Assembly (NCBI GenBank): GCA_013306675.1
Contig: JABLUY010000083.1
Coordinates: 62,001-126,000 of the forward strand
From: Thraustochytrium sp. TN22
Taxonomy: Eukaryota; Sar; Bigyra; Thraustochytrida; Thraustochytriidae
Length of the DNA stretch: 64,000 nt
Reading direction: 5' to 3'
Shown here: positions 7,527-59,408 of the stretch, piece after piece
How the letters are laid out: every line of letters begins with the position of its first letter
How positions within the stretch are numbered: the stretch's first letter is position 1
Position numbers and translations under genes: made by a program
The notes under the pieces: model-generated
The model's input: the letters and a program-made list of their open reading frames with translations, nothing else
Told to the model about the DNA's origin: nothing
Database searches by the model: none

Positions 7527-9569
7527 ATGCTGCTGGCCGCGACGTATCCCAAGGACGCCGCAGCCGAGTGGAACTCAAGCACCGCCACCACCATCGACCA
7601 GCGTGGCCGCAACGAGCGCGGCGGTGGGCGCCAAACGCCGCCCATCGCCGCCAGCTCACCACCACCACCCACGCTCCCGCAAACGACGCTGCCTCTCGAG
7701 CAGCAACAGCAAGACCACCAGCGCCAGGCCCTGCAGCAGCAGCAGCAGCAGCATGACCAGGTGATCCTACGCCACTTCAGCCAACTAGACAGCCAGCATC
7801 ATCAGCACCAACTCCAACAACAACAACAACACCACCACCACCAGATGATTCAGGCCGCTTCCGGCGCCCAGGGCCTGTCCCCTACGCTTGGTGCCGATCT
7901 CTTCTCGCATCCGTGGGGGGCCGTGTCGCGGCTGCCGCCGCCGCCGCCGCCCCAGGTCTCCGGCGCTCTGCCCGCCATCCACACCACCATCTCGCCGCCC
8001 AGCGTGAGCGACCAGCTCATGCTCGGCTCGTCCCTGTCCTCCCCAGCCTCTGGAGCCACCGCGCTGCGTGAGCACCTGCACCAGCAGCAGTCGACACCCG
8101 CCAGCGGCAATGCGCCGCGCTTGCGCCGCCCGCAGCAGCAGCAGCAGCAGCACAATGCGGACGAGGAGGCCGAGGAGGAGGAGGTAGAGGAGGAAGAGGT
8201 AGAGGACGAGGATGGGGCCGAGGCGAACCAAGGGCATGAGTCCGAGATCACCGTCAAGGACGCCAACTGGTTCCTCGATGCTCTCGAGGTCTACCACAAG
8301 AGCGATCTCACCCCCGAGGAGCGCTCCGAGCTCGAGCTCTCCGGCCTGCGCGACAAGGCCAAACATCGCAACGCCGTCCTCTTCCAGGATGACCTCGCCT
8401 TTCTGCTCCGTGGGACCGAGCGCTACAGCTTCGACCCAATCGCCTTCTCGCGCAGCTCCACCTGCAGTGGCGACCAGCGCATCTTCAAGCTCCGCGAGTG
8501 CACCAAGCTCGTCCTGCGCGGCTATCGCCGCAGCCTTCGTAATGCGCCACCCGGGAGTTGCGTCTGGTCCGCGCTCATGTACCGCCTCGAGTACTTCATG
8601 CGCAACAAGTCCGGCATCGAGGGCGTACGAATGAGCGAGCGTGTCGAGGGGGTGCGCCACAAGGAGGCTACGCTCTTTGTCGAGGACTATCACATCTCGC
8701 GCAGCAACTTCGCCAAGCTCGCGCGTCAGGTTCTCAAAGCTGAGGACGATGCTGCAGGCGCCGCCTCCGCCTCATCTTCTTCGTCTTCCAACATCGTCCC
8801 TGTCGCGCCCAATGTGCCGCCTCCATCCGGCCTCGCCCCAGAGGTGGCGGCCCCTCCGGACGCATCCTCGCGCTTCAACACCGGCCGGAGGAGGCCGGCC
8901 TCGGCAAGCAGCTCCGCCAACACCGTCCCTGTCGCGCCCTCTGTGCCGCCTCCATCCGGCCCCGCCGCAGAGCTGGCGGCCCCTCCGGACGCATCTCCGC
9001 GCTTCAACACCGGCCGGAGGCCGGGCTCGGCAAGCAGCTCCGCCAGCACGGCTAAGAAGAAGCGCCCGGCTTCAGCGCGCGAGACCGCTGTGCGCCGACC
9101 CGCGCACCGCGAGCGTCGCAAGAGCGCCCCGGCCATCGGCTCGCCCACCAGCTACGGCGAGCCCATGCAGCAGGAGCCCGCGCTTCCGGACCAGGTGCCC
9201 TCCGTGCAGCCCACGCACGACCTTGCGCTCCACCAGCACCAACACCCCGCCGCGCCCGCCACGCACGACGAGGAGCATAAGCGCAATCTCGACGCGCGCG
9301 CAGAGTCTGATGACGCCCGCCCCTCGTTCAAGCGCCCGCGGAGCACCCCGATCTCGCCCACGTCCAGCCGCAAGGCCGACGACCTCAGCGCGCTCGTCGC
9401 CGGTCATCCAGGCCCTGTGGCTGCCTCAGCCTCCTCATCATCCACCTCAGCTGCCGCGCCTGCCGCAGCAGCTGGTGCGGAGGCTGCGCTGGAGGCGGCG
9501 GAGGTGGGACCAGCGTCCTCCGCTTTCTCGCCTTCCAACGCACGCCAAAAGCAAAGGAGGCGCAAGTAG
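7527..9569 (+). CDS. Gln-rich, acidic nuclear-type protein of unknown function (680 aa)
   Basis: I do not recognise this family. The frame starts at an ATG (7527) and runs 680 codons without interruption. Residues about 50-115 are rich in Gln and His with poly-Gln runs; residues about 211-231 are almost purely Glu/Asp. Residues about 238-404 are the only complex, globular-looking part, rich in charged, aromatic and aliphatic residues with no motif I can name. Residues about 422-508 contain a 43-residue in-frame tandem duplication (Pro/Ser/Ala-rich, each copy ending in RFNTGRR). A basic cluster AKKKRP near 512 and a C-terminal RQKQRRRK look like nuclear localisation signals. The pattern suggests a transcriptional or chromatin-associated protein, but that is inference from composition. 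No intron is needed. Confidence 0.7.
   Translation: MLLAATYPKDAAAEWNSSTATTIDQRGRNERGGGRQTPPIAASSPPPPTLPQTTLPLEQQQQDHQRQALQQQQQQHDQVILRHFSQLDSQHHQHQLQQQQQHHHHQMIQAASGAQGLSPTLGADLFSHPWGAVSRLPPPPPPQVSGALPAIHTTISPPSVSDQLMLGSSLSSPASGATALREHLHQQQSTPASGNAPRLRRPQQQQQQHNADEEAEEEEVEEEEVEDEDGAEANQGHESEITVKDANWFLDALEVYHKSDLTPEERSELELSGLRDKAKHRNAVLFQDDLAFLLRGTERYSFDPIAFSRSSTCSGDQRIFKLRECTKLVLRGYRRSLRNAPPGSCVWSALMYRLEYFMRNKSGIEGVRMSERVEGVRHKEATLFVEDYHISRSNFAKLARQVLKAEDDAAGAASASSSSSSNIVPVAPNVPPPSGLAPEVAAPPDASSRFNTGRRRPASASSSANTVPVAPSVPPPSGPAAELAAPPDASPRFNTGRRPGSASSSASTAKKKRPASARETAVRRPAHRERRKSAPAIGSPTSYGEPMQQEPALPDQVPSVQPTHDLALHQHQHPAAPATHDEEHKRNLDARAESDDARPSFKRPRSTPISPTSSRKADDLSALVAGHPGPVAASASSSSTSAAAPAAAAGAEAALEAAEVGPASSAFSPSNARQKQRRRK
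8793..9050 (+). repeat. 129-bp in-frame tandem duplication inside the Gln-rich protein gene
   Basis: Two adjacent 129-bp copies (about 8793-8921 and 8922-9050) encode near-identical 43-residue Pro/Ser/Ala-rich segments. The length is a multiple of three, so the frame is kept. Confidence 0.8.
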
Positions 9570-10381: not shown

Positions 10382-13300
10382 ATGGAGGTCGCGCTCACGT
10401 ACGAGGCGCGCGCGCTCAAGGCGCGCGAGCGGAGTAACGTGCTCAAGCGCTGGAAGCGCGTCGAGGCGCTCCGCTACAACGCGGGCGATGAGAGCGGCCA
10501 GGCTGACAAGGCCGCCAGCGTGCTTACGCTCGCGGCCAGGTGCCCTGGCGGCGCAGGCACCGACGCGCGGCTGTACTCGCTGCATAGCGGTGCCCACGGC
10601 GTCGTGCGACGCAAGACCAAGCTACGCAAGGTCGATGGACTCGCGCTCGCTCGCTCCGGCCGCTTCGCGGCCGCCGCGCTCCGCGACTCGCGCGCCGTGC
10701 GGCTCATCGACCTCGACACGCTCGACCACCCGATCGTATGCGAGCTGCCCTTTCCGGGCGACAATGCACGCCTGCAGGTTGTCGCGCTTGAGGTCTCCGA
10801 TGACGCGCGCTGCGTGCTCGCACGGACCACCGACGAGACGGACGCCTGCCAGCTATGGGTGCACGCCGACGGCGCCTGGCACTTGCTCGCCGCCTCCCCC
10901 GTGCAGCCGCGCGCGCTCCAGGCGCGCTGGCTGTGCACCGAGGCCGGCCGCGTCGCCCTGCACCTCGCCCAGGTCTTCGCAGCGCCCGTGCGGACCAAGG
11001 GCAAGACGCTCCTGGCCTTCACCGGCGCCTTCGCCGAGTGGGACGGCTGGCGAGCTACGTTTGGCAAGCGCGCCGCACACGCGTCCGAAGCCACCCTCGC
11101 GCACCAGCCCCACGTGCCAGACGCCGTCCGCTCCGTGCTGCTGGCACCCAGGACCGCCACAGACAGGGGCGCCGCTCTCGCCTGCTTCGGGCCTGCCGCC
11201 TGTGCGGTGAACTTTCACCCCACCGCTCAACGCGCCGCGGTTCTCCTCATTGCCGCGCAGGCCGCCGCGGCGGACCGTGCCGTGGTCGTCGATCTGCCGG
11301 AAACGCTGCGCGCCTCGCCAGACGCCCTGGTCTGCGACCTGTGCTGGGTCGCGAGCGACGCCTTGCTCGCGATTGCCCTGTCGGACGGCTCCTTCAGCCT
11401 CCTCACGGCCGCTGGCGTCCCAATTGTGCTTGCAGACCGCGGCTTCCGACTTTTCTTCCGCGACCTGGAGCCCTTCGAGTCACAGAGCAAGGTCGACCCC
11501 TGCTTCTCGCTCGCGGCGCACGCTGAGCGGCCCGAGGTTACCTGGTGCGACGGCAATCGCAACCTGGTCCATGTGGCGCTTCCCGGCGTGCCGGGCCACG
11601 ACACCATGCTCTCGGCGAGCGTGCGCGCGCTCCTTGCTCCCGATCTCCTCGACGAGCTCAGCGATGAAGAAGAAGACAATGACGAGGAAGTCGAGGAGGA
11701 CGAGGAGTCTCCCCTCCATACCATGGAGACTCATGAGCAGGAGAGCGCCTTTGGCGCTGACAGTGGCGACGGCGGCGGCGACGATGGCAGAGGCAGTGAC
11801 GACGTGCTCGAGACGTCCCAAAGCCCAATGCGGACGCCACCGCGAAGCTCGGCAGCGCGCCTCCGTCGAGCCCTCCAGGCCTGGTCGCTCTGCGTGCTCG
11901 CGACCACACCCGACGCCACGGCGCTCACGACGCAAGCTGCACACTACCTCTCACGGGCCGCTCAGGCACGCGCGCGAGAGCACCCGCTCGAAGCCCTGGC
12001 CGCCACCACCCGTGCCTTTGCGCTGCTCGGCGTGACTCCGGAGCCGAGCCGCGTCGCGCTCGAGCAGGCCGCGCTGCTCGCGCAGGGCCTGCTGCGCGCC
12101 TGCGTCCGCCACCAGCATTTTTACGTCGCGCTACACATTCTGCGCATCGCCGAGGCGGCCCTCCACCGCGTTGGCCTCCAGGTGCCCGGCTCTGACGCTG
12201 TCGCGCTCGACCGCCAATGGTGGGACCTTGGCAGCCAGGCGCGCCTACAAGGCTCCGCTCCCCACGAGGCCGATGCGGTGCTCGCCTACGCGCACCAGCG
12301 CCGCGTTGCCTGGACTTCAGCGCGCGCTGAGGGCGCCGCGCCGCGCGCGCTGCTCGTAGCCCTCGCCGACTCGGACCAAGAAGGCTTGGTACAGGTCCTC
12401 CCGGACAACCCCCCGGTCGCCCTCGTGCCACGGGGCGACGACCTCTTCCTCCGAGGCCTCTACGACGAGGCGGAGGGCGCCTACGCTGACGACGACCGCG
12501 GCGCGTACTCGCTCATGTGCGTGCTCCTCCGCCGACTCAAGCTTAACCAAGCGCTACAGGCGGCGCAGGACTGGTGGGCCAGTGCTGATGCGCGCCATGC
12601 ACACGCCGCCGCGCTCGGACTGCTCGGCACCGTCATGGCTGCCCTCTTCCTCAACGAGCCGGATCTCGCTGCGGTGCCGAGCCCCTGTGCGCACCCCACG
12701 CGACGCTCCGTGCGCTGGCTCGATCTCGGGCTCTTGGAGCGCCGCAGCCGCCGCATTCCACGCTGGACACCGGCGCCTGCCGCATGCTTCCTCGTCGCGG
12801 CGGGCCGCGTTGCCCTCGCGCACCGTTTGCTCGCGGCCGTCCGCGATCCCCGCGAAGTGCTGCGCGTCTTCGACCGAGACTCCATCCGGCTCCGCTTCAC
12901 GCCGGACCAGCGAGCGCATGTTCTGCAGCGTCACCTCGTCGCGCAACTCGTGGTGCGCGACTTGCGCGCATGTGCACGCATCGTCCTCTACGTGCGCGAG
13001 GCGCCCGAGGAGCCCGCCGTGCGTCTCTCGCTTCTGTGGATCTTGCTCGCCGACCTCGACATGGTCGAGCTGCCCGACAAGGCACCGCACTTTGCGCTCG
13101 CGGCCCAGCGCCTGCAGATTGGCCAGACGCGCACCACACACACCACCGTCTTCATCGGCAAGCTCGCGCTCCTGCTCGCCTGGTCCTCGGGATGCGACCA
13201 GGCCTGGCGCGTGCAGCTCTTTGAGAGCGACGCGAACCGCGAAGGGACTCTTGCACTATGGCGCCCGGCGTTGAGACTGCTCGTCTACCACATCTGGCGT

Positions 13301-15376
13301 CTCACTGTGCAGCATGCACCGGACCCTCTCCTTAAGGCCTTCGTGCGCGATCGCGGGCGTCACCTTCCGGGCGAGGTCTCCCAAGCCCTGGACCACGTGC
13401 TTACCGCGCTCGCCCACAGCGGCGATGCTGACTTTGCGGAGATCGTGGACGTCCTTCTGAACGGCGCGGCCAAGGTCGACCTTGACCTTGAGCTCCTTAC
13501 ACTCTCCACGTCTCAGGCCGTCGTCGACGACGACGCCGTCACCTATGAGCAGACTCCTGCCGAGCACCCGGACGAGGATGATCTCCCATTTGGGGAGAAC
13601 GCATCACAAGATCCTACCGAGAGCCCAGAGACGGCCGCGGAGATGCACAGCGCCGGGGATGAACCCAGCCTCGAAGTGATGTCTGACACTGCCGAAGACA
13701 CCTCGCAAGAGGCGAACGAGACGCCTGTCAGGGCAGACCAGGACGAGCTTGCTCTCGAGGATCTCGACGCCGACGAAAGCGAAGAATGCGAGAGCGAAGC
13801 CGCCGACGACGACCTCAATGTCCTCGCATCGCCGCTCGAGGAACGCAAGGCCTTTCCTGCGCCGGTCGAAGACGATGTGAGCAGCGTGGACGACGACCTG
13901 GCGAGTATACGGTCTGGGGCAACCGAGAACAGTCTCGAGGATAGCGGAGGCGGCAAGGAGTTCGAGGGCCTCAGAAGTATTGGCTCGTCTGGGAGCAGCC
14001 ACCTGCACCAAGAGTCCGACAGTGAGGACCTCGGCACGAAGGACGACAGGGAATACCCGAGCCCATGGATCTTTCGTGCGACGCACGATGACACCAAGGT
14101 CCTCGACCGTCTGCGTGCGCAAAATGCGGAGATGCGCGCCGTGTTGGAGCGCCTCTCGTCACGACAGGAGGATAGCCAGAAAAGACACAATGAGCAGGTG
14201 CGGCACGCACTGGACGCGCTCGCTGCGCGCCTGGATGCCTTCGCACAGGCGAAACACCACGATGCTGCTTCTGCGCCCTCTGCCATGCAAGCGTCGCTTT
14301 CCACTGAGCCTCCGGCACATGCGCAAGTTGCGGAGATCAACGACGGTGATCACGCCTCGATTTCGAGCAGCGATATCTCGGACGAGATGGCCGCCTCGGA
14401 CGACGACGGGTTTGTGGTTGCATCGGGCTTGGCCGCGAGAGCGTTCCTAAAGCGCGTCGGCCGGCGTTTACCCCTAGCAGCTCCCGCTGAGGCACCCGAA
14501 GTCGGTTTTCGCCAGCAATTCGAGGCGGGCGCTCGCCGTGATGCGCGGGAGGATTCGCCGATGAGGGTGGCGTCGCGAAGGCACCGCCGCGAGACATTGC
14601 TGCCGCCGCGTCTTGATTTACTTCCTCCGCTCCTCGGCGTACATCCCACGACGCAGCAGACGGCACGCATGCATACACTTCGCGTCAAGACAGTGCAGCG
14701 GGCAAGCACGGGGACTCAGACACAGCCACAGCCACGGCCACAGCCACAGCTACCTGTAGCTTGGGGGCCTGAGCTCATGGCTCCTACGCTCACGCCTTCT
14801 TCGCGCGCGCAGCCGGTGCCTTCGTTTGAGCTGCCTCCCTCTTCGCCGCCGCCGCCGCCGCCGCCACCGCTGGGTTCGCCTCCCCCTTCTCCGCCGCCTC
14901 CGCCACCTCCGCCGCATCCTCCTCATTTTCACCCTCTTCCTCCGGCGAATGATGTGCGAGACGTCCAAGTTCACGTCGAGCCCGAGCGGGCGTCCATGGC
15001 CGTCCAGGCAACCATGAGCCCCCCCGAACCGGCGGTCCGTACGGTGGGGCCACTCACCAGTCGTCGCCTCGTCAAGGGCGCGAAAGCGCCCCCGCAAGCG
15101 GCAGTAGACCTGGACGATGATCCACTTCACGGGCAGCTCAGCATGCTCGTCCCCCATGCTGCACCTGAGGTCTACCTCCAGGTGCGCGCGCAAGGCACTG
15201 TATCCAAGCATCAGGCGTGGCTGCGTCGATCCACCACAAAACGTAGCTTCCTTCACGTCGCGCAACTCGATGAGAGCTCCTCGTGCTTTGCGAACCTGCG
15301 TCAGCAAAGGTCCGAACGAGGTGGCCACGGTGGGGATGGAAGAGAGCCCGCGGGCCGCTTTCGCGGCATCTTTTAG
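10382..15376 (+). CDS. WD-repeat/helical protein, probable CPLANE1 (JBTS17)-like ciliary protein, 1664 aa
   Basis: A single intronless frame from ATG 10382 to TAG 15374-15376. Residues about 1-420 read as a degenerate beta-propeller. The order of blocks (RGAALACFGP, then VCDLCWVASDALLAIALSDGSF, then a later FSLAAHAERPEVTWCDG) matches my memory of the N-terminus of human CPLANE1, where a similar SDISW...LFLVCMLKRGSLVLL block precedes FSIKAHPRLPYLIVSDG. An acidic linker follows (about 423-480), then a long helical region (about 490-1060), an acidic Ser-rich stretch (about 1065-1235), a coiled coil (about 1240-1290) and a Pro-rich tract (about 1486-1518) with long poly-Pro runs. CPLANE proteins act at the ciliary base in intraflagellar transport. 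This protein is about half the length of human CPLANE1. Another WD/TPR-like protein is possible. The stop codon lies inside a TAGCTAGC motif. Confidence 0.55.
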   Translation: MEVALTYEARALKARERSNVLKRWKRVEALRYNAGDESGQADKAASVLTLAARCPGGAGTDARLYSLHSGAHGVVRRKTKLRKVDGLALARSGRFAAAALRDSRAVRLIDLDTLDHPIVCELPFPGDNARLQVVALEVSDDARCVLARTTDETDACQLWVHADGAWHLLAASPVQPRALQARWLCTEAGRVALHLAQVFAAPVRTKGKTLLAFTGAFAEWDGWRATFGKRAAHASEATLAHQPHVPDAVRSVLLAPRTATDRGAALACFGPAACAVNFHPTAQRAAVLLIAAQAAAADRAVVVDLPETLRASPDALVCDLCWVASDALLAIALSDGSFSLLTAAGVPIVLADRGFRLFFRDLEPFESQSKVDPCFSLAAHAERPEVTWCDGNRNLVHVALPGVPGHDTMLSASVRALLAPDLLDELSDEEEDNDEEVEEDEESPLHTMETHEQESAFGADSGDGGGDDGRGSDDVLETSQSPMRTPPRSSAARLRRALQAWSLCVLATTPDATALTTQAAHYLSRAAQARAREHPLEALAATTRAFALLGVTPEPSRVALEQAALLAQGLLRACVRHQHFYVALHILRIAEAALHRVGLQVPGSDAVALDRQWWDLGSQARLQGSAPHEADAVLAYAHQRRVAWTSARAEGAAPRALLVALADSDQEGLVQVLPDNPPVALVPRGDDLFLRGLYDEAEGAYADDDRGAYSLMCVLLRRLKLNQALQAAQDWWASADARHAHAAALGLLGTVMAALFLNEPDLAAVPSPCAHPTRRSVRWLDLGLLERRSRRIPRWTPAPAACFLVAAGRVALAHRLLAAVRDPREVLRVFDRDSIRLRFTPDQRAHVLQRHLVAQLVVRDLRACARIVLYVREAPEEPAVRLSLLWILLADLDMVELPDKAPHFALAAQRLQIGQTRTTHTTVFIGKLALLLAWSSGCDQAWRVQLFESDANREGTLALWRPALRLLVYHIWRLTVQHAPDPLLKAFVRDRGRHLPGEVSQALDHVLTALAHSGDADFAEIVDVLLNGAAKVDLDLELLTLSTSQAVVDDDAVTYEQTPAEHPDEDDLPFGENASQDPTESPETAAEMHSAGDEPSLEVMSDTAEDTSQEANETPVRADQDELALEDLDADESEECESEAADDDLNVLASPLEERKAFPAPVEDDVSSVDDDLASIRSGATENSLEDSGGGKEFEGLRSIGSSGSSHLHQESDSEDLGTKDDREYPSPWIFRATHDDTKVLDRLRAQNAEMRAVLERLSSRQEDSQKRHNEQVRHALDALAARLDAFAQAKHHDAASAPSAMQASLSTEPPAHAQVAEINDGDHASISSSDISDEMAASDDDGFVVASGLAARAFLKRVGRRLPLAAPAEAPEVGFRQQFEAGARRDAREDSPMRVASRRHRRETLLPPRLDLLPPLLGVHPTTQQTARMHTLRVKTVQRASTGTQTQPQPRPQPQLPVAWGPELMAPTLTPSSRAQPVPSFELPPSSPPPPPPPPLGSPPPSPPPPPPPPHPPHFHPLPPANDVRDVQVHVEPERASMAVQATMSPPEPAVRTVGPLTSRRLVKGAKAPPQAAVDLDDDPLHGQLSMLVPHAAPEVYLQVRAQGTVSKHQAWLRRSTTKRSFLHVAQLDESSSCFANLRQQRSERGGHGGDGREPAGRFRGIF

Positions 15377-15530: not shown

Positions 15531-18500
15531 CTAGTGAGGAATAGGCTGGACACCCACGTCGCGCTCAAACGCCCACATGCGCGGTCGGTGATCTGGGTCC
15601 GGGGTAGCGCCACCGTTTTGTGTGGGCTCCTTGTACTGAATGATGCCGAGGTCGCGTCGAATGCTCCTCGCCCGCTCAAAGCTCCAGCCGCTCTCGATGA
15701 TGTAGCTCTTGATGACGCGCAAGGGACAGGGGCCCGAGCCGAGCTTGGTCTCCAGGTAGTCTTTGATAAGAGCGTCTTCCGGAGATGACGGCAGCTGGCT
15801 TAGGGGCGTCCCGGGCGACAGCGGCGAGGTCGCCCGCAGCGCCGCCGACTCTGAGGTTGACGTGGGCCTGCTGAGCGGCGCCTGTCGCTGCGAGGGGTCG
15901 GTGCCGAGCTTATTGGGCGCCGCGGACGCTTTCCCGTCGCCCTTGGCGAGCCCAGCGGAGCTTGGCGACACGGTCTTCAACTGTTCTGTGGACAGCATCC
16001 CGTTGCTCTTTGTTGCTTTCCTGTGCTTGGCGAGGTTGAGCGGCTGCAGCTCTGGCACGGAAGGCCGCTGGTTCTTGGCCTGTGCGTGAGCAGCGTCCGC
16101 CTCATCGCTGGACTGGATATTGAAGTGGGCAAGAAGCAGGTTGACTTTGGCTTCCAGCGTGTGTAGTTGGTCTGCGTCCTTGCTCGCGCGGTCGCGGGAG
16201 GAAGCTCGCTCGACACTCTCCATGGGCGCATGGTGATCGTAGTGCTTAGCGCTCTTGCGCTTCACGGGACTGCTCTCCCCCGCGAGGTGCCTGCTCTCGC
16301 CGCGAGCATTAATGCCCGAACCTGCCCCGTCGCCAGGTGCATCGCCGTAGTCGGCATCATCTGCGGTGTTTAGTGCCACCGGGTCGAGGATGTCGTCAGG
16401 CTTCCAGTAGTTGAGGTCGTCGCGGTCCTTGTGCAGGTGCTTGTCGTACATGCGCAGGCTGTGCTCGATGCTCTCGGTGACGAGCTGCTCCCACATGGAG
16501 TCGCTCGCCTCGCGCTCCTTCGGGTAGACGTCTGTCACGATGGCAATGAGTAGGTTGACGGAGATAGACGTGAAGAGAATAAAGGTCGCTGTGGCTAGAA
16601 GGCCGGCCCAAGACGCCGAGGCGATGTAAGTGAGGCCGTCCCATGACTCGACAAAGGGCGTGTAGAAGAGAGCGTAAAAGGTACCCCAGACGGTGACCCA
16701 CTCCGCGACGCTGGAGCCAAAGCCGACGTGAAAGGTGAGTGCCAGCATGTAGCTGCAGGCCGCAAGCACGACCAGGTAGATGCGCACGGCGAGATTGCCG
16801 AAGGTGTTGATGAGAGCCACGACCACTGGACCGACGTTGGGCAGCGAGCGAGCCGCACGCACAAGCGGCACAGTGCACATGAGATAAAGTGCCGCCACGA
16901 CGAGCTGCTCGACGCGGAGGATGGAGTGGTGCCGCTCCCAGGATGCAAAGTCGGCCGGACCCACGCCTTCCTTGAGCCCACGCGTCTGGTTGTACACGAA
17001 GACGTCGAGGCCTAGAACGCCGAGAAGGAGCGAGGCAGCAATAATCATGACGAGCGGGGGCTGGCGCGAGCGGTAGCGCGTGAGGTAAGCCAATGGCCAG
17101 CGCACGAGGATGAAGGACGCTACGGCGCATACGATGGTGATTTGGAAAGCACGCGAGGGCGGGAAACGGCCATAGTCTACACGGAAGTTGAAAATGTCAA
17201 CGTGGTGGCTGATGCCCGCGTAGTAGCTGGTCTCCATGGAAATGCGCACGATGCCGTGAATGTTGTGCAGAGGATTGAAGACGTTGAACTCCAGCTGAAT
17301 GCTCTCGAGGCCGCTTGCGTTCGCGAGCCTCGCTTGGGCCTCGATGTCTGCGGCCATGACGGCTCCAGGGCCTTGCGCGATGATGTGCGTGTGGGTCTGA
17401 CTGGGCAGCAGAAAGGTGCCTTCGCTAGCCGTGCGCCAGTCAAAGTCCGAAGCAAAGATGCTGTGGTCGGAGCGCTTCACCATGATGGCGCCGATGACCC
17501 GGTTGAAGTCGAAGACCAAGAGTGTCTGATGCTCCTCGTCATAGTGGAGGTCACCGGGCAGATCATCCCGGACCCAGCGACGCAGGTCGTCGAAGGAAGC
17601 CTGGTCGCCCATGCTGGCCAGAACCTCAGCGCGCATGTGTTCCTGCCAGGCTAGCTCCGACGGCACGTCATAGTCCGGTGAGATGGGCGTCATGATGGCG
17701 AAGGTGATCATGATGCCGAGGATCAGCGTCGTCTCGAGAAGGAACTGCTTGAAGGCGCGCTTCTTGCGCCAGCGACGCACGGTTTGCGCCTTGTTCAGAA
17801 CGGCGATCATCTTCTTGGAATCCTCAAAGCGCGTCTCCTGCTTCTTGAGACTCTGCTGCAGGTTGTGCATGTTCAGGGTGCCGGAGGGCTCCCCGGAGGT
17901 CTCGCCCACGAGAGCTGTCGTCGCGGCGGCAAGAAGACCCGTTGCGCCATCGGCTTGGGTTGATGCCGCTGCGCCGTTGGACATGGCACTGGCCCCGACA
18001 CTGGCACTGGCACTGGCACTGGCAGCCGCAGCGGCAGCGGCGGCCGGCGTGTCGGCAGCAGAGGCAGCCGCAGTTCCGATCGCTTTCCTTGGGTTGACCA
18101 TGGCGCGGACCGCGCCGACACTGTCCTCATCGAAGAACTTGGAGGTGGACTTGCGCACGTAGGGTGTACCGAACGCGGCGCTGGGAAAGCCCCACATGTC
18201 GGTGGCTCGAATCTCCTCGCGCAGGCGGCTCAGCGCGTCGGCGATACGGATGTGACGTGAGAGAGCACGGTAGTATGGCGTGAAGACAATGCTGAGATGC
18301 TTGAGCTCCGCAAGGATTGGGTTCGCCGAGAGCCGCAGCAGCGTCTCAACCGTGTCAATCTTGCCGTGCTGGATGGCCAGGCAGAGTGGGGAGTACTCCG
18401 TCATTCGCTCCACGAGGCTCCCTGGGTCGCCGGCGTCGTGCAGGCTGCCGTGCGGGTGGACTGCCGCACCGGAGATGAGCTTGTCCCTGACCGCGCCCCA

Positions 18501-21500
18501 GGCGCGGTGCGTGGAGCTACGCAGCTTGCGCAGCGACGGCTTGGACACGAGCTTCCTGCGCGAAGAGTTGAGGTGCACGACATCGCGCTCAGTCTCGCTC
18601 TGCGGGCGGGCGTGAATGCCGTCCGAAAAGTCGCCCTTGCCAGAGGATCCCAGGTCGACGTCGCGACCGAGGCTCTTGAGCACGGTCGCGTTGAGGTCGA
18701 CGAGCTGGTCGGACTGGTTGAGCCGCTGCAGGTGGCTGACAAGGAACTCGCAGCAGGCTGTGTGGCCACGCGAGGCGGCGTGGTGCAGCGCCGTGTAGCC
18801 GCGGTTGTCCGGGATGAGCACGTTGACCCCATTCTCCGCCTCGACCAGGAGTTTGCACATGTCCAAGTCGCCCTGGTACGCCGCGAGCGCGAGCGCGGTG
18901 AAGCCGTTGCGGTCGCGGTGGTCCGGTTTGACGCGCAGGCGCAGCAGGTGCTGCGCCGTGCTAAGGTGGCCGCGCATGGCGGCCAGGGACAGCGCAGACC
19001 GGCCGCGGTCGTCCGTCACGTTGAGGTTGATTCCAGCACGCTGCGCCGACAGCGAGCTGCCCTGGTGCGCGAGGATGATGTTGATGGAGATGAGGTGGCC
19101 GCGGCGCACGGCCGCCAGGAAAAAGGCCGTGAGCAAGCGCTGGCGCACCTGTGGCACGTTATGGTTGGCAAGGGTGTCGCGGGAAACGTCGACGGAGGCG
19201 CGGCGCGCGCGCTCATGCGCCTTGCTGATGACGCGGTCCGTGACGTACTTGCTCATCTGAATGCGCCAGCCAAAGCTGTAGGCGCCCTTGACAATAGACT
19301 CGGCGCTGGCGCGCAGGTCGTGATGCTCCTTCTCGTTGAGTTCAGCATAGGGAACGAGCGAGTGGCTGAGCTGCAAGCCGGGCAGGATGTTGCGCTCCGG
19401 GGCGTAGCGGTAGCCCTCTTTGATTCTCGCCCGTGCCCACACCTCGTGCGAGTTGACGGCCATACAGGCGAGGAGGCCCTCGAGGCCGTCCGGGAGCGGT
19501 CCGTCCAGCTCAATGGGCCTGCAGCCCGGTCGGTCTTCATCCCACTGTTGATCCGCGTACTTGAGCGTGCCGCGCCGTGCCTCTGGGATGGCGGCGGCGG
19601 AAGGGGAGCGCTTCTGCTGCTGCTCTCTCTGGTCCGCTGAGGGCGGCACAAGCTGGCAACCGAGGGTGAGGATGACCTTGAGCGCTTCGTTGACGATGTC
19701 GATGTTACATTTGCGGCTCGTTTCGGAGATGTTCTCGAAGGGGAGCAGGTCCGGGTGCAGCTTTGTCTCGTTGTTCCGTGTGGGCGCGTACTGCCAGCCG
19801 TACTGCACCTTGTTGCGGCACCACACGTTGTGCAAATTGCGCGCGAGGCGGCGCGCCAGCTCCGTTGTGGCATCGTTGAAGACGATGTCGTGCGTAACGA
19901 GCGGCGTCGGGTTGAAAGAAAGCGCGGCCGCCTCGCGGCGATCGGGCGGACGCCGCGCGTTGCACACCTGGCCGGAGCTATCACACTGGCAGTTGGAGCG
20001 CATGATGCCGCGGCGCTGGAGCGGGTTCTCCATCTCACCATGCTTGTGACAACGGTCCTTGCACACCAGGCAGACCTCGACCTTGCAGACTGTGCAATAG
20101 TACATGTACTGGTACATGCGACCAAATTCGGCGCACTCCACCGTGCAGGTCTCTCCGCGGTCCAGACGCGTGGTGAGCGCCACGAGCGCCTGGTCAATGC
20201 GGATGGCGTTCTTCTCGGCGTTCTTAAGCAGCATCTCGCAGCCGTCTACGTCGCTCATGAGCACGAGACGATGAAGAAGCTCCTGCATGTGGTCGCCGCG
20301 CCGCGCTGACGCATGGCAGCCCATGCGCAAAAGTAGGCGCGCTGTTTCCAGATGACCCTTGCGAAGAGCCAGGTCCAGCTCGGTTTGCGAACGGCGCTCG
20401 CCAGTGTCGCCCAGGGGCGCGCGCACGCGCAGATTGCGCATCATGCCATTAACAAGGCGACTGTCCCCTGCGAGGCCCTCGCGCTCGTCCGAGAGCTCCA
20501 GCAACGTGCGGAGGACTTCGGCATGACCGTTCTCCGCGGCAAGATGCAGAAAGGAGAAGCCCGCCTCGGTAAGGCGGTCCAGCGGCAGCTTCTGCGTTGG
20601 CGCATCCTTAAAGATGCGGTGCCACGCGAGCCGTACGAAGACGCCGCTGCGCGCCGCGTAGTGCATTGCGTTCCAGCCACCGTTGTCTTCGTCGTCAATC
20701 CGCGCGAGCACGGCCTCCTCGCTCAGCAGGCGGGATGCCACCATCTTGTGCTCCTCGGTGTCCTGCGAGAGTGCCAACATCAGCGCCGTACGACCGTGGT
20801 CGTCCCTGCGCAGTAGGTGCTCGGGTGCGTCACAGACGTCCATGATAGCCTCCAGGAGCTCCAAATTGCCCTGCTCCGCGGCGAGCATGAGAGCGGTCTG
20901 GCTGGACGGCGGGTATTTATCCGTCGGCATGCGCCGCCGCAGCTCCGGGCTCGCCTCCATGAGTAGGCGCAGCACCTTAACGCGGCTCGCCACCGGCGAG
21001 AAGAGCAGACCCAGGGCCAAGGGTGTCAGGCCGTCGCTGTCCTCGACCAATGGGTCGGGCTTGGGGTCCAGATGAGTGCGCAGGAGAAAGTCCAGCGTCT
21101 CCACGTTGCCTGCGAAGCAGCACGCGTGCAAGATCGTCCGCTGGGCCGGGCCCACACGCGTGTTCACATCGGAGATGGCTCGCAGATGCGCCGGATCGAG
21201 CACGAGCTGGTCGCTACGTGAAATCATGTGCAAGGCAGTCTCCAACCCCTTCCAGGGGCGACCTTGGCCGCCGTTCGGGCTCGAGACATTCACTTGGTCC
21301 GTGAAGATTGGCTTGATGCGAGCGTCCTCCTTCGCGCCGCCGCCACTTAGAGTCCGGCTCGACGACTCGTGATCCTCGACGTCACTCGTGGTCGGATCGT
21401 GAAAACAGGCGTCCTCTACAATGTACACCACTGTATCGGAGGTCTTGGTCAGCACTTCCAGCGCCGTGTTGGTCGCAGTGTGATAGGCCCCGCACAGGTA

Positions 21501-22178
21501 GAGGTCGCAATTCTGAATGTCCATCTTTGAGTTGAGCCGGTTGGCGCCCTTGTCACGCAGGGCCGAGTACGTATCACGGCGCGGGTGCGCGCCGCTGAAG
21601 ATCACCCTGTAGTCGATGCCCCGGCACAGCGTGGTGGCTCCCGGCGTGCCGGCCACGCACTCTTCCTTGCGCATACGAATCGTGTCGCCCAGCTGCAAGA
21701 TGTAGCGCCACTCGCCCCGGCGCGCGCCCGGGTGATTTTCTTCGAACGAGCAGTGTGTGCATGGATGCCACTTGAGACAGACGGCCACCTCGTCGAAGGA
21801 GCCCGTGGCGGCGAGCTGCCTGATCTTCTCCAGCACTTCATCGCGCTCGTTGGCCGCCGTGCGCTCCGCCACGTCCTGCTGAACGTGGACTAGGATCAGC
21901 TTGCGCTCCCTGCGCGCGTGTGGTAGTCGAGGTTCTGCCGCGAACGAGGGCAGGGAAAGTGTTTTGACTGGCGGCTGCGTGCGTCTGCCGCTCGCGGTGC
22001 TGTCCTTGCTGACAGCGCCCGCGACGGAGGCCTGTTCCTGCCTCTTTTCCGCCTCCATCTCCAGCTTCATCTGCTGCTGCTGCTGCTGCTGTTGCTGCGT
22101 TGGTGCCTGCGCTGCACCCTGCGCTGTAGATGACGCCTGCGCGCCTGGCGCCCGCGCGGCGCCGCCGCGAACCTCCAT
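15531..22178 (-). CDS. Ankyrin/RyR/polycystin-type cation channel with N-terminal nicotinamidase-like domain (2215 aa)
   Basis: One intronless minus-strand frame from ATG 22178 to TAG 15531. Domains in order: a Gln-rich leader (1-90, poly-Gln 28-36); a nicotinamidase/isochorismatase-fold domain (about 93-262) with LILVHVQQD, CVAGTPGA, DTYSAL, CDLYLCGAYHTATNTALE and VYIVEDAC; ankyrin-like repeats (about 345-660); a UBR-box-like Cys/His cluster (about 678-739); two RyR domains (about 764-845 and 898-975) with LHNVWCRNKVQYGWQYAPTR and SHEVWARARIKEGYRYAPER; a second ankyrin block (about 1010-1310); an Ala-rich linker; then a six-helix channel core. TM1 lies near 1475-1500, a large extracellular loop of polycystin type follows, TM2 begins near 1680, and the pore plus last helix lie near 1820-1880 (TYIASASWAGLLATATFILF). 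A short predicted coiled coil lies in the C-terminal tail. The likely role is a Ca2+-permeable sensory channel. The family placement (polycystin-like TRP) rests on topology and pore-region resemblance. It is convergent with the preceding gene, with 154 bp between stops. Confidence 0.8.
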   Translation of the reverse strand: MEVRGGAARAPGAQASSTAQGAAQAPTQQQQQQQQQMKLEMEAEKRQEQASVAGAVSKDSTASGRRTQPPVKTLSLPSFAAEPRLPHARRERKLILVHVQQDVAERTAANERDEVLEKIRQLAATGSFDEVAVCLKWHPCTHCSFEENHPGARRGEWRYILQLGDTIRMRKEECVAGTPGATTLCRGIDYRVIFSGAHPRRDTYSALRDKGANRLNSKMDIQNCDLYLCGAYHTATNTALEVLTKTSDTVVYIVEDACFHDPTTSDVEDHESSSRTLSGGGAKEDARIKPIFTDQVNVSSPNGGQGRPWKGLETALHMISRSDQLVLDPAHLRAISDVNTRVGPAQRTILHACCFAGNVETLDFLLRTHLDPKPDPLVEDSDGLTPLALGLLFSPVASRVKVLRLLMEASPELRRRMPTDKYPPSSQTALMLAAEQGNLELLEAIMDVCDAPEHLLRRDDHGRTALMLALSQDTEEHKMVASRLLSEEAVLARIDDEDNGGWNAMHYAARSGVFVRLAWHRIFKDAPTQKLPLDRLTEAGFSFLHLAAENGHAEVLRTLLELSDEREGLAGDSRLVNGMMRNLRVRAPLGDTGERRSQTELDLALRKGHLETARLLLRMGCHASARRGDHMQELLHRLVLMSDVDGCEMLLKNAEKNAIRIDQALVALTTRLDRGETCTVECAEFGRMYQYMYYCTVCKVEVCLVCKDRCHKHGEMENPLQRRGIMRSNCQCDSSGQVCNARRPPDRREAAALSFNPTPLVTHDIVFNDATTELARRLARNLHNVWCRNKVQYGWQYAPTRNNETKLHPDLLPFENISETSRKCNIDIVNEALKVILTLGCQLVPPSADQREQQQKRSPSAAAIPEARRGTLKYADQQWDEDRPGCRPIELDGPLPDGLEGLLACMAVNSHEVWARARIKEGYRYAPERNILPGLQLSHSLVPYAELNEKEHHDLRASAESIVKGAYSFGWRIQMSKYVTDRVISKAHERARRASVDVSRDTLANHNVPQVRQRLLTAFFLAAVRRGHLISINIILAHQGSSLSAQRAGINLNVTDDRGRSALSLAAMRGHLSTAQHLLRLRVKPDHRDRNGFTALALAAYQGDLDMCKLLVEAENGVNVLIPDNRGYTALHHAASRGHTACCEFLVSHLQRLNQSDQLVDLNATVLKSLGRDVDLGSSGKGDFSDGIHARPQSETERDVVHLNSSRRKLVSKPSLRKLRSSTHRAWGAVRDKLISGAAVHPHGSLHDAGDPGSLVERMTEYSPLCLAIQHGKIDTVETLLRLSANPILAELKHLSIVFTPYYRALSRHIRIADALSRLREEIRATDMWGFPSAAFGTPYVRKSTSKFFDEDSVGAVRAMVNPRKAIGTAAASAADTPAAAAAAAASASASASVGASAMSNGAAASTQADGATGLLAAATTALVGETSGEPSGTLNMHNLQQSLKKQETRFEDSKKMIAVLNKAQTVRRWRKKRAFKQFLLETTLILGIMITFAIMTPISPDYDVPSELAWQEHMRAEVLASMGDQASFDDLRRWVRDDLPGDLHYDEEHQTLLVFDFNRVIGAIMVKRSDHSIFASDFDWRTASEGTFLLPSQTHTHIIAQGPGAVMAADIEAQARLANASGLESIQLEFNVFNPLHNIHGIVRISMETSYYAGISHHVDIFNFRVDYGRFPPSRAFQITIVCAVASFILVRWPLAYLTRYRSRQPPLVMIIAASLLLGVLGLDVFVYNQTRGLKEGVGPADFASWERHHSILRVEQLVVAALYLMCTVPLVRAARSLPNVGPVVVALINTFGNLAVRIYLVVLAACSYMLALTFHVGFGSSVAEWVTVWGTFYALFYTPFVESWDGLTYIASASWAGLLATATFILFTSISVNLLIAIVTDVYPKEREASDSMWEQLVTESIEHSLRMYDKHLHKDRDDLNYWKPDDILDPVALNTADDADYGDAPGDGAGSGINARGESRHLAGESSPVKRKSAKHYDHHAPMESVERASSRDRASKDADQLHTLEAKVNLLLAHFNIQSSDEADAAHAQAKNQRPSVPELQPLNLAKHRKATKSNGMLSTEQLKTVSPSSAGLAKGDGKASAAPNKLGTDPSQRQAPLSRPTSTSESAALRATSPLSPGTPLSQLPSSPEDALIKDYLETKLGSGPCPLRVIKSYIIESGWSFERARSIRRDLGIIQYKEPTQNGGATPDPDHRPRMWAFERDVGVQPIPH

Positions 22179-25102: not shown

Positions 25103-25466
25103 AACCTCGCGTCACCTCGGGCTACCGGGTACTACTACCACCATCACATGGCATCCAGGCTGAGAAAGGAAGAAGCACCGTGCAGTCAGAGAGCGCACAG
25201 CACACCACGTAACCAGCGTAGAAGTAAAGCATCTGTTCATCTCCCAGTGCGATCCGCCTGCAAGCCATCTGACGAGCGAGTCGAGTCGCTTGCAGGCTCT
25301 CTCGCTCCGCGTGTTGATGATCGTCAGAGGCAAATGGCCTACGGCTGGTCTGCTCGTCCCGTGTTCCCGCCCCTCCCGGCCTCGCTCTGCCTCGCCTTGG
25401 CCTCGTCCCGATTGTCGCACCATCTTTTCCCCCGCCACCTCCTCCTCCTCCTCCTCCTCCTCCTCC

Positions 25467-25528
<62 letters not shown>

Positions 25529-25927
25529 CTCCTCGTCCTCCTCCTTGTCGCTCGCCTTGTTCGCCTCCTCGACGCGACGCGGCGCGACCCGGAGCGAAGC
25601 AAACCCCGGCCTAGCTCGACGCTGCGCGGCGGCGCGGCGGCGCGGCGGCGCGGCGGAGCGGCGGCGGCGCGGCGGCGGGCGCCCAAGCCCGCGGCGCGCA
25701 GCTCCGGCCAGCCGCAGCGGGTGCGGCGGCGTGGCAGCGGCGGCGAGCGACGCCTGACGTGGCGGCGAGGCTGCCCAAACGTCGGCGACGAGCCTGCCCC
25801 GAGACTGCGACGGCCGCGGCGCGGCCCGCGCGCCGGCCCCAGCGACCGGGAGGGGAGGCGCAGGCGAGGCACGCGGAGGCGAGACCCTTGCCCTCTCGTC
25901 GCCGGTGCCTTAGCGGCGTCGGAAACC
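25103..25927. other. Leader/promoter region of the ARF-GEF gene, pyrimidine-rich repeats
   Basis: Between the phosphoglucomutase stop and the chosen ARF-GEF start. It contains a long imperfect CTC/CGTCCT trinucleotide tract (about 25436-25560) and a GGCGGCGCG run (about 25625-25680). The frame of the next gene stays open through it but would encode Leu/Val/Arg low complexity, so I treat it as 5' flank and not as coding. Confidence 0.6.
25436..25560. repeat. CTC/GTCCTC trinucleotide repeat tract
   Basis: An imperfect run of CTC and CGTCCT units about 125 bp long on the plus strand, upstream of the ARF-GEF start. Confidence 0.85.
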
Positions 25928-28900
25928 ATGGACGGCGCGCAGGTGCTCAACTGCGTGCGCAGCGAGATCCACAATGTGCTCTCGACGATGCGGCGCAACG
26001 GGCGGTGGGCGAGCGAGGAGCGATTCGTGCGCGAAATCCCTAGCGACTTCGAGAACCCGATGATCCGGTCGCTGCGCACCCTGCACGATTACCTGCAGCC
26101 ATTCGAAGATATCAGCGACGTGGACGCTGTCGCTTACCTACAGCCGTTCCTGGACGTGGTGGCGTTTCCGAACACGAACGGTGCCATGACGGGGCGCGCG
26201 CTGTCGAGCGTGAACAAGTTCCTGCTGTACGGCGCTGTGACGAAGGAGTCGCCGCGCGGACGCGAGGCCATCAACCTGGCGGTTGCCAGCGTCGTGGAAT
26301 GCAAGTTCGAGGCGACCAACTCGTACAGCGACGAGGTGGTGCTCATGCAGCTGCTGGAGGTGCTAGTGAACCTGCTACGGTGCCAAGCCGGCAGCTACAT
26401 TAGTGATACGAACGTATGGAAGATGGTGGAGACGTGCTACAGGCTCAAGACGGAGTCTGGCACGAGCCAGCTGCTGCGTAGCACGGCGGCCAACAGCCTC
26501 ACGCACCTGATTCTCACGCTCTTCTCGCGGTCCTCGGAGCTCATCACCGTGGAGGCCGTCAGCGCCATGGAGACTCGTCTGCAGGCCTTTGCTGGCACGC
26601 GCGAGGAGTACCTGGAGACGGCGCTTTCGCACGGGCGCGCTAGGCGCCAGAGTGAGAGCGGAGATGACTTCGCCGCGGACGACCTCGACGACGAGGAGGA
26701 CGACGAGGAGGACGAGGAAAATGGCGACAGCGACGAGGGAAGCAGCCTCGGCGCCGGCGACGAGGACGGTGACGCCTACGCGGCGCCCGGCCAGCGCGCG
26801 ACGGGCACGCCTAGATCATCACTTCCGACGAGCGCCACGGGCGACCTGGCGGCTGCAGATTTGCGGCAGGCGCAGCGGCAGGTGCAGCTGGCTGGCGCGC
26901 TCTCGCCCCTGGCGGCTGTCAACACTGGCGGCGGTGGCAGCGGCGGCGGCGGCGGCAGTAGCAGCAGCCGGACCGGCGGCCATCAGCGAGCGCACAGCGA
27001 GGACCCGGACGAGGCGCTGTACCGTATGCTACAGCCGATACGGGCGAGCAATCCGTCTTCGCAGCCGCTGCGCGCCCGCGCGCATCAGGGCGCGGCGGAA
27101 TCATACGGGCTGCCTGTGCTGGTCAAGGTGCTGGACTTTTTGGCACAGCTCACGGACCCGTCGTACAACAGCGAGTCAGCGCGCGTGTTCGCGCTGCAGC
27201 TCATCAACATTGTGCTGGAGAGCGGTGGCGAGAGCCTGGCGGTGTCTGCCCCGCCGCAGGAGTCGTCGCCCATTATCTCGGTGCTGCAGGGCGACATGTG
27301 CAAGCACCTGCTGCAGAACTCGCAGTCGGGGGACCTCTCGGTGCTCTCGCTCACGCTGCGGGTCATCTTTAACTTATTCAACGCGATGAAAGGTCACCTC
27401 AAGGTGCAGCTGGAGGTCTTTCTGACCAGCGTGCACCTGCGCATCGCCGAGTCGCCATCCGCCACGTACGAGCGCAAGGAGCTCGCGCTCGAGTCGCTGC
27501 TAGACTTTTGCCGCGAGCCCGCCCTTATGCTCGACCTGTACACGAACTACGACTGCGACTTTCGCTGCACAAATCTCTTCGAGACGCTGTGCAAGTGCCT
27601 GTGCCGGTGCTCCATCCCGCTGCACGTGCTGTCGAGCAACTCGCGCATCGCCTACATCACTGGCCTAGACACGGACGAGGAGATGGGCCCTGCGGAGCAC
27701 GCCGCGGTGTCGGCGGAGGACTTCGCGTCGAGCCTGGACTCCATCATGGAGCTCGGCAACGAGATTGACCCGAACGACGACACTACGGGCATTACTGTCC
27801 TGGAGGGCATCTCGCTCGAGGGCGTGCTTGCTGTCATCGATTCCATTGCGCGCCGCTGCGTCGCGGAAGCCCCGGAGGACGCCGCCGCGCAGGCCGGCGG
27901 CCCGCCCTCGGCGGCGGCGACGCAGGCTGCTGCTGCTGCTGCCGCGGCTCGCGCTGCGGGCGTCGACGAGGACGAGGCTGGCCGCACCTCGCCGGACGAC
28001 TGGGTCACCGCCGGGGACGCGGAGGCTCGGGCAGGCGGCGAGGGCCTGCAGTGGCTGGCGATCGCCAATGCGCGCGAGCGCCGCGCCGAGATGCTGCGCG
28101 AGCGCAAGCGCATGAAGCGGCGTTTGCTCCTGGCGGCGCGCCAGTTCAACAAAAAGCCCAACAAGAGCTACTGGCTCGAGTACGCGCAGGATCTAGGCAT
28201 CCTCCCAACGCCAGTCACGCCCAAGGACGTGGCGGCATTCTTCCTCAACACGCCGGGCCTCGACAAGTCCGCCGTGGGCGAGTACCTTTCCGAAGACCCC
28301 GCTTGGAAGCCTTTCAACGGTGAGGTGATGCAGGCCTACATCCAGAGTTTCGACTTCACTGGCGTCCGCATCGACCGCGGCCTACGCATGCTCCTGGAGA
28401 GCTTTCGTCTGCCCGGCGAGGCGCAGCGCGTCGATCGCATCATGGAGGCCTTTGGCAACGAAATCTTCCAGCAGAACAAGGCCTCCGAGGAGCGCGATAC
28501 GGCAGCGGAAGCGGCGGAAGCGGCAGCGGTGGCGACAGCGGTGCCGCAGGCCGGCGAGAATGCCGCCGACGCGCAGCCCGGCACTGGCGCCGACGCGCCG
28601 GCGCCTGCGGAGGACGCACCGCAGCCCGCCGAGGGCGAGGCTCGTCAGGAGGACCCGGACGCCATGGGCGTCTTCAAGTCCGCGGACGCGGCCTTCATCT
28701 TCTCGTTTTCCATCATCCTGCTGCACACCGATCTGCACAACCCGGGCGTGGCGCCGGAGAAAAAGATGAAACTTCACGAATTCATCCGCAACAACCGCAA
28801 CATCAATGCGGGCGAGAATTTGCCCGAGTCGCTCCTGCGCAACGTGTACGAGGCGATCCGCGACGAGGAGATGCGCATGCTGTATGACCCGCATGCGCAC

Positions 28901-36700: not shown

Positions 36701-36967
36701 CTCGTTCTCGCTGTCATCGAGGCGGCCATCATGAGCCGCGCCCTCGTCCTCGCCGTCGTCGAGGCGGCGATCATGAGCCGCGCCCTCGTCCTCGCTGTCG
36801 TCATCGGCCATGACCGCGTCCAGCCCGCTCAGCGCCGCCGCGCGCGGCGTGGCGTCGTTGGGCGCACGGCCGCCTGCGCGGCCATCGTCCTCGACCGGGC
36901 GCTCGCCGGCCTCGCGAGCAGGGTCGCCGTCCGGGCCCGTGTGGCCCGCGCCGCCGTCGTCCGCCAT
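33731..36967 (-). CDS. MCM4: DNA replication licensing factor MCM4 (1078 aa)
   Basis: A subunit of the MCM2-7 replicative helicase. An intronless minus-strand frame from ATG 36967. The C4 zinc site CTMC...CSNC lies near residues 460-490, Walker A GDPGTSKSQ near 725, Walker B CCIDEFDKM near 785 and the arginine finger SRFD near 855, followed by the winged-helix end (QVMKAVHSLVDDEKLIFD). Overall identity is clearly MCM4 type (IRSLRGM-like region, GGTNKEVSQQAG). The N-terminal about 300 residues are acidic and contain repeated DDSENEDAARAR-like and PRI(T/F)ETAV(A/G)SES blocks with many Ser-Pro sites. That is typical of the DDK/CDK-regulated MCM4 tail but about 200 residues longer than in human MCM4 (863 aa). 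An internal Met could serve as a start, but the acidic region seems genuine. Confidence 0.96.
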   Translation of the reverse strand: MADDGGAGHTGPDGDPAREAGERPVEDDGRAGGRAPNDATPRAAALSGLDAVMADDDSEDEGAAHDRRLDDGEDEGAAHDGRLDDSENEDAARARRPDAAMADDDSENEDAARARPQASARPPISATAVASPSQESADEDEDYLSRRPRITETAVGSESGDEESEGEEHPAPQRPRIFETAVASESQQSAADSDDDELDPARARRQPQDSPGSPRSHVRRPRALEDSPASPASSADPLDSPGRRAALPRGDLAGGAPRRLLMPQSPASSAARGDGDEDDLDAPPAAAAADAAGAAAMQLDDDMDGEEAVIYGTTVQVQREIATFRRFLDSYTRRGADEPFYRQRLAEIHETRELVINIDCEDLYGSDLEYLQLYKKLIQYPNEMIPALDLAVYQQFITMFPQDPTLESGERIQVRTFNLHRLSRMRQLDPEDIDMVVALRGMVVRVSPVIPDMKTAKFRCTMCNHEDEANIDRGVIEEPKQCSNCRQKHVMQIIHNLCLFSDKQMVKLQEAPENIPEGETPQTISMYAYDGLVDVAKPGDRVEVTAIFRASAVRKIATQRTTQAIYKTFLDVLHFRPIQKGANLQARDRDLDTIRTRLLRRQQREQQRAAGADHDSDDEDDDLMDEANDGHAGAGAGARDDDGDELIDEAEQQAVFREMARDPDIYTKLAHSVAPSIWELDDIKKGVLLQLMGGTNKEVSQQAGEVRSTHRMRSRGEINVLLCGDPGTSKSQILGYVHKLAPRGIYTSGKGSSAVGLTAYISKDPDTKELILESGALVLSDRGVCCIDEFDKMSDTTRAILHECMEQQTISIAKAGIIATLNARTSILASANPVESRYNPRLSIVQNIQLPPTLISRFDLIYLVLDKPDPATDRRLARHLVQLYFRNPQARGAIVDRVTLRAYIAYCRRTCFPQISDSAVRKLVQGYVQMRQAGSLNNGKKTISATPRQLESLIRIAEAHAKLHLSNIVTEVDVDEALRLMHVATQTAAVDPRTGTIDMDAITTGVGATERAMNEALGQELFALIPREGIRAFALTSALSAQSSNHVTQDQVMKAVHSLVDDEKLIFDQRTGLIRPVG

Positions 36968-58958: not shown

Positions 58959-59367
58959 TCAGCTCGGGATCTGCGGCTTGTTGCCCGCGCGGTGAAAGAG
59001 ATTGCGGTAGTGGAGGAGTGGTGTGTCGCCGTGGAAGCAAGAGGTCCAGCCGCGGTCGCTCTGCTTGTTCTTGTAAATTTTGCGTTTGCAGTAGAGGGCG
59101 AAGCTCGGGGGCGAGATGAAAAAGTTCGACTCGAACTCGATCAGACCATCCTTGTTGATGACGCCCTCGAAGCGGTGCTTGTTCAGGTACGGCACGCAGA
59201 TCTTGTCCCCCGGCTTGAGGTAGCCGTGCTCCACGAGGTCCACGATGGTGGTCTGGTGCGGGTTGCGCTTGAGCATGAGCTCGCTCTTGAACTCGTACTT
59301 GCGCCGCTTCGCGTCGCTGCTGTTGCTGGCGGTGCCGGACTTTGACATCCCGCCACCGCTGTTGTTG

Positions 59368-59408
<41 letters not shown>

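Follow-up and report, generated by a model that had tools for sequence, protein, structure and literature searches.

One open reading frame within the 64,000-nucleotide stretch of DNA analysed here (hereafter the window) encodes a candidate ion channel, in which a nicotinamidase-like domain lacking its catalytic residues and a tandem pair of RyR domains precede a putative six-helix pore. We read the protein as a TRP-superfamily cation channel, probably of the polycystin type, tetrameric and gated by nucleotide or NAD-related ligands, and assign this reading a probability of about one half. The composition suggests a channel that reads the NAD or energy state of the cell. The order of modules claimed in the preliminary description of this DNA holds along the whole chain, namely a nicotinamidase fold, ankyrin repeats, a UBR-box-like Cys/His module, two RyR domains, further ankyrin repeats and the six-helix pore segment (Table 1).

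Table 1. Features of the candidate channel, with residue numbers and positions in the window.
Feature	Residues	Positions	Strand	Basis
Whole open frame, candidate ion channel	2215 aa	15531..22178	-	ORF scan, stop-run test, codon GC
Gln/Ala-rich N-terminus, probably disordered	1-84	21927..22178	-	Sequence composition
Putative pseudo-nicotinamidase (isochorismatase fold)	91-276	21351..21908	-	NCBIfam, PDB search, alignment, model of residues 85-335
Ankyrin block 1	about 340-655	20214..21161	-	Ank_2 2.2e-32 in residues 330-665
Cys/His module resembling the UBR4 UBR box	672-742	19953..20165	-	PDB UBR4 E 0.043, residue spacing
RyR domain 1, with W786, K790, R801	755-843	19650..19916	-	Pfam, RyR1 match, alignment
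RyR domain 2, with W914, R918, R929	894-975	19254..19499	-	RyR structure matches, alignment
Ankyrin block 2	about 1014-1290	18309..19139	-	Ank 4.6e-25 in residues 1000-1300
Ala/Ser-rich linker	1371-1435	17874..18068	-	Sequence composition
S1 transmembrane helix	1477-1500	17679..17750	-	Hydropathy
S1-S2 loop domain, end resembling polycystin-domain end	1501-1673	17160..17678	-	Polycystin_dom below cut-off
S2 to S6 and pore	1674-1886	16521..17159	-	Hydropathy, Ion_trans
Candidate selectivity filter ESWDG	1844-1848	16635..16649	-	Weak alignment to polycystin-2 LGD
Possible C-terminal coiled coil	2004-2026	16101..16169	-	By eye, unscored

The frame lies on the minus strand at positions 15531-22178, starts with ATG and ends with TAG, and the claim of a single frame of 2215 codons is borne out by an uninterrupted reading and a high GC content at third codon positions throughout (0.69-0.90 across 100-codon blocks). 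The longest stop-free run in the 64-kb window amounts to 2248 codons, against a maximum of 724 in 40 order-3 Markov windows. Another 33 open codons lie 5' of the ATG, which leaves the true start uncertain. Against the lack of any stop and the sustained third-position GC, it is very improbable that two genes run together in this frame, or that it conceals introns, so that sensor and channel would be separate proteins. What speaks for such a split is the Ala/Ser-rich stretch between the sensor half and the channel half, together with another frame in the window (56666-58327, plus strand), where only a central part of a protein kinase domain is found (profile positions 106-153 of 263; 25.7 bits, below the cut-off of 31.7), so that local genes may be intron-split. 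A single protein is also favoured by the place of one ankyrin block, between the RyR pair and the pore, which is comparable to that in ankyrin-bearing TRP channels. The C-terminal end of the channel protein (15534-16481, minus strand; residues ~2149-2182) resembles a small helix-turn-helix by eye and has no Pfam match at E 1.

Among the neighbours of the channel frame are a Sec7-domain exchange factor with GBF1/BIG-type flanking domains (25148-31687, plus strand), an MCM helicase with an MCM4 winged-helix match below cut-off (33731-36967, minus strand) and a GDT1 transporter (51253-52443, minus strand), all of which are ordinary eukaryotic nuclear genes. A further frame (58962-62237, minus strand) combines a RAMA domain (1.6e-11) with a PHD finger (24.1 bits against a cut-off of 24), and possibly encodes a eukaryotic reader joining histone marks and DNA modification. 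Two other long frames, at 10382-15376 (plus strand, 1664 aa) and 7527-9569 (plus strand, 680 aa), have no Pfam match above cut-off. Scans of the window for Rfam families (gathering thresholds) and for tRNA genes both came back empty.

The N-terminal domain matches the NCBIfam profile PRK11609 (PncA) at 1.3e-4 and 21.9 bits, against an equivalog cut-off of 174, and finds two solved nicotinamidases in the PDB at 6.7e-9 and 5.1e-8. For a model of residues 85-335 (pLDDT 79.7), the top 11 Foldseek matches were all nicotinamidases or pyrazinamidases, the best at 2.1e-11; the model was built on a nicotinamidase alignment that pulls it toward this fold, and the Foldseek result is thus not independent of the PDB match. 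The nicotinamidase fold proposed at the outset therefore stands on the NCBIfam and PDB matches, but the Pfam family PF00857, on which that proposal had been staked, gave no match up to E 10, where the HMMER filters drop most weak matches; E. coli PncA as a control reached 1.4e-34. On these sequence matches, the kinship of the domain with nicotinamidases is solid. A scan of viral_contigs with a nicotinamidase profile matched 11 contigs.

Sequence alignment with 42 bacterial PncA relatives and E. coli PncA revealed that the active site of the domain has been dismantled. In E. coli PncA numbering, we take D10, K111 and C156 to be the catalytic triad and D52, H54 and H86 to be the metal ligands. 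The triad residues are kept in all 43 comparison sequences, and their counterparts in the channel domain are H98, S195 and T234. Likewise, D52 and H86 (43/43) are replaced by K136 and E173, leaving only the metal-ligand position H54 (43/43) occupied by a His, H138; H142 is kept too. The channel domain also bears a two-residue deletion immediately before the Cys position, and its nearest Cys, C229, lies one residue before the invariant glycine and not at the nucleophile position. The relatives were drawn from the 80 loci listed out of 263 relatives, and 56 of the 80 were chosen, those left out by eye being mostly near-duplicates; ten were then dropped for a length outside 150-300 residues and four more as short (three) or redundant (one). 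The seed patterns used to find them allowed D or H at D10 and D or K at D52, and left K111, C156 and H86 untouched. Because the catalytic residues and two metal ligands are replaced despite their conservation in 43/43 relatives, we regard the domain, as judged from the alignment, as a pseudoenzyme. An intact nicotinamidase fused to a channel is accordingly rejected. The paired replacement of Asp by Lys and of His by Glu could swap the metal for a salt bridge. Loss of the triad is as would be expected of a sensor or scaffold. In nicotinamidases the metal site is the known anchor of nicotinamide; with this site lost, the channel domain may bind a ligand other than nicotinamide, or none at all.

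The RyR pair is beyond doubt. PF02026 matches two stretches above cut-off at 6.5e-35, which confirms the two RyR domains claimed earlier by the very profile search set as their test; the pair matches RyR1 at 5.4e-43, and repeat 2 alone also finds RyR structures. In RyR3, W880, K884 and R895 of repeat 1 and R1018 of repeat 2 are reported to contact AMP-PCP, W994 stacks on a drug, and ATP closes the clamshell of the R12 domain (PMC12627627). Four of these five ligand-contact positions are kept in our protein: W786, K790 and R801 align with W880, K884 and R895, W914 is the fourth, and the position of R1018 is occupied by Ser. In repeat 2, R929 takes the place equivalent to R801 of repeat 1. A chain named RyR1 chimera has the same set of a Trp, a basic residue at +4 and an Arg at +15 in each of its two repeats, so that the set may reflect a constraint of the fold; among the four RyR1 repeats in the RyR1 alignment, the +15 Arg is confined to the first. 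Taken at the level of sequence, nucleotide binding by the tandem RyR domain is plausible. MIR, RIH and SPRY are absent from the Pfam matches of the whole protein at E 1, and membership in the ryanodine/IP3 receptor family is rejected for want of MIR or RIH. RyR matches occur in 6 of 50,697 phage records and 1 of 72,556 plasmid records, spanning 21-42% of the query, or about one repeat, and a scan of viral_contigs by exact short peptide patterns, which finds close relatives, returned no relatives of the pair.

The RyR pair is flanked by the two ankyrin blocks, both of which Pfam detects separately, in agreement with the earlier claim of ankyrin repeats before and after it. Over the whole protein the ankyrin match reaches 1.5e-48 and is beyond doubt; the last repeat, which follows a linker of ~100 residues, is weak (18.7 bits, cut-off 21.1). 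Between ankyrin block 1 and the RyR pair, 10 Cys and 2 His fall within residues 678-739 (C678, C682, C695, C698, C703, C706, C710, H711, H713, C730, C732 and C739), with a spacing like that of the UBR4 UBR box. In the PDB search of this module UBR4 (E 0.043) ranked second to ribosomal protein S26 (0.0044), an implausible match. The zinc module described beforehand is thus seen in its Cys and His residues and in the UBR4 match, but the profile search proposed for a UBR box found neither zf-UBR nor any other zinc-finger family in Pfam up to E 10, where the filters drop weak matches. The module resembles a UBR box and is termed UBR-like here, without being called one.

The pore is weakly identified as an ion channel from its sequence. 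Hydropathy analysis shows six hydrophobic peaks at residues 1477-1886, the first two of which are ~170 residues apart. Six helices with a long first loop are the layout of polycystins and mucolipins. Ion_trans scores 25.2 bits over the whole protein and 27.5 and 28 on pore segments, against a cut-off of 25. The six-helix channel of the preliminary description is supported by these peaks, the long first loop and, weakly, Ion_trans, but as to its polycystin-like character the PKD_channel family that was to be searched gave no Pfam match to the whole protein or to pore segments, and Polycystin_dom, aligned at the expected loop end over profile positions 159-194 of 199, remained below cut-off at 0.22-0.3. 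In a PDB search with the pore, PKD1L3 (E 2.3) was the only channel among five matches, the four others being dihydroorotase chains that scored equally or better; with a shorter query (residues 1652-1900) no channel came up at E 10. Pairwise comparison leaned towards polycystin-2. Its alignment score was reached by 4 of 1000 shuffles, a figure that overstates the PKD2 case since shuffling breaks up the hydrophobic segments, and that of TRPML1 by 179 of 1000, so mucolipin membership is not favoured. HMMER, run on one-sequence databases, returned E 0.0023 for the fragment of PKD2 and 0.25 for that of TRPML1. For scale, polycystin-2 is reached by a mucolipin query only at E 0.19 (a polycystin-2 query reaches mucolipins at 1.7e-5), and such weak scores therefore do not exclude polycystin kinship. 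The structural model of the pore is poor (pLDDT 44.1), and all 641 of its Foldseek matches stay weaker than E 0.001. The list is headed by ribosome-assembly factors and acetyl-CoA carboxylase; among the best 50 of the 641 there are eight polycystin/mucolipin entries and no other ion channels that we noticed, with TM-scores of 0.07-0.13 for the polycystin/mucolipin entries, as unreliable as matches of a poor model are. On these data the polycystin kinship of the pore is only suggestive. In the weak alignment, WDG inside ESWDG lies opposite the LGD filter of PKD2, so that the putative filter would retain acidic residues. Neither the pore nor the whole protein has relatives in viral_contigs by exact short peptide patterns, a scan that finds close relatives.

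Given these modules, we propose a putative model for gating of the channel. That it is ligand-gated and carries Ca2+, as the preliminary description had it, is inferred. In a tetrameric assembly, ~1450 residues of a presumably cytosolic sensor would precede each pore segment, an orientation that we infer. The nicotinamidase domain, its catalysis lost, would now serve as a regulatory module for ligand binding or interaction. The tandem RyR domain would bind an adenine nucleotide and close around it, as the R12 clamshell does in ryanodine receptors. Movement of these domains would be relayed by the ankyrin blocks, the second of which would connect to the gate, and this coupling would lead to cation conduction. 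A more specific version is unlikely. Cleavage of NAD+ yields nicotinamide and an ADP-ribose moiety; the channel could be a coincidence detector of NAD+ breakdown, in which the pseudo-nicotinamidase senses nicotinamide or a related pyridine, the RyR clamshell senses ADP-ribose or ATP/ADP, and the two jointly open a Ca2+-permeable channel. If true, the TRPM2 principle would have been invented here a second time and independently, from an isochorismatase-fold pseudoenzyme.

The main rival to ligand gating holds that the channel is gated by voltage, force or Ca2+, and that the pseudo-nicotinamidase, UBR-like and RyR modules merely assemble or tether it. We consider this doubtful, if clearly less so than the other alternatives. 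Nicotinamidases are commonly oligomeric, and long ankyrin arrays tether channels such as NOMPC, which is itself among the ankyrin matches of the protein. Furthermore, RyR domains have been proposed as protein-interaction sites in the PKDRR channels of oomycetes (PMC4820453). On the other side, the Trp, Lys and Arg of the nucleotide site are kept in RyR repeat 1, which mere tethering does not require, though a fold constraint might. In this candidate channel the tandem RyR unit, which keeps most of its nucleotide-site residues, stands next to a dead NAD-salvage enzyme and so offers a link, open to test, from RyR domains to nucleotide sensing and NAD metabolism.

With nicotinamidases (PncA/PNC1; solved structures 2wt9, 9u8m and 2h0r) the N-terminal domain shares its sequence, at 6.7e-9, and its modelled fold; it differs in lacking the D/K/C triad and two metal ligands, and in its fusion to a channel. 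With the R12 domain of ryanodine receptors the protein has in common the tandem RyR repeats and, in repeat 1, the adenine-stacking Trp and both basic contacts to phosphate, whereas the Arg1018 contact is missing and the pore is different. TRPM2 is a channel fused to NUDT9-H, a Nudix fold at its C-terminus derived from a nucleotide-metabolising enzyme. The analogy drawn earlier to this metabolic-enzyme domain turned sensor is strengthened by the loss of the catalytic triad; here an isochorismatase fold stands at the N-terminus, while TRPM2 carries its Nudix domain at the C-terminus of a channel with a pore of another family. After TRPM2, ours would be the second enzyme of nucleotide metabolism turned channel sensor, with a different fold. 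We know of no nicotinamidase-like domain in the TRPV channels OSM-9/OCR-4 and Nan/Iav. These invertebrate channels are gated by nicotinamide (PMC5064019), and hence are TRP channels that respond to an NAD-derived metabolite with a TRPV pore. Among the matches listed in the open-licence PMC literature, by titles and abstract starts, none describes a nicotinamidase-like domain in an ion channel, and PMC9503650 makes no mention of RyR, isochorismatase, nicotinamidase or TRPM.

The closest known systems are the oomycete PKDRR channels. Most of these are described as a single PKD-type pore with two RyR domains, and some as carrying extra domains (PMC7399828, PMC4820453); the function of their RyR domains is called unknown (PMC7399828). 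P. infestans PKDRR B was observed at the surface of cells, and the agonists tried on it in HEK cells elicited no Ca2+ response (PMC7399828). The main text of that paper is free of the terms isochorismatase, nicotinamid-, zinc and UBR, and mentions ankyrin once, for IP3 receptor homologues. Our protein and PKDRR (Zheng et al. 2020) are alike in joining two tandem RyR domains to a polycystin/TRP-type pore, weakly supported here, in a eukaryotic microbe. This likeness would suit a member of the PKDRR family with lineage-specific N-terminal additions, a rearranged order and no new kind of gating, an explanation that we hold to be improbable. Against it stand the missing PKD_channel match, the absence of the above terms from that main text, and the order of domains: the RyR pair at residues 755-975 precedes the pore at 1477-1886, whereas in PKDRR it lies near the C-terminus (PMC4820453). 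The preliminary description had called the architecture one not met before; the combination of a PKD-type pore with tandem RyR domains was already known from PKDRR, but the reversed order, the pseudo-nicotinamidase and the UBR-like module do differ. If the host is not an oomycete, the protein would contradict the statement that RyR-bearing PKD-type channels occur only in oomycetes. Compared with PKDRR, our candidate ligand-gated channel thus has three further kinds of module, namely the putative pseudo-nicotinamidase, the UBR-like module and both ankyrin blocks; its pore rises above cut-off only for the generic Ion_trans, and its candidate filter reads WDG where the PKDRR filters read LGA or AG(D/E) (PMC7399828).
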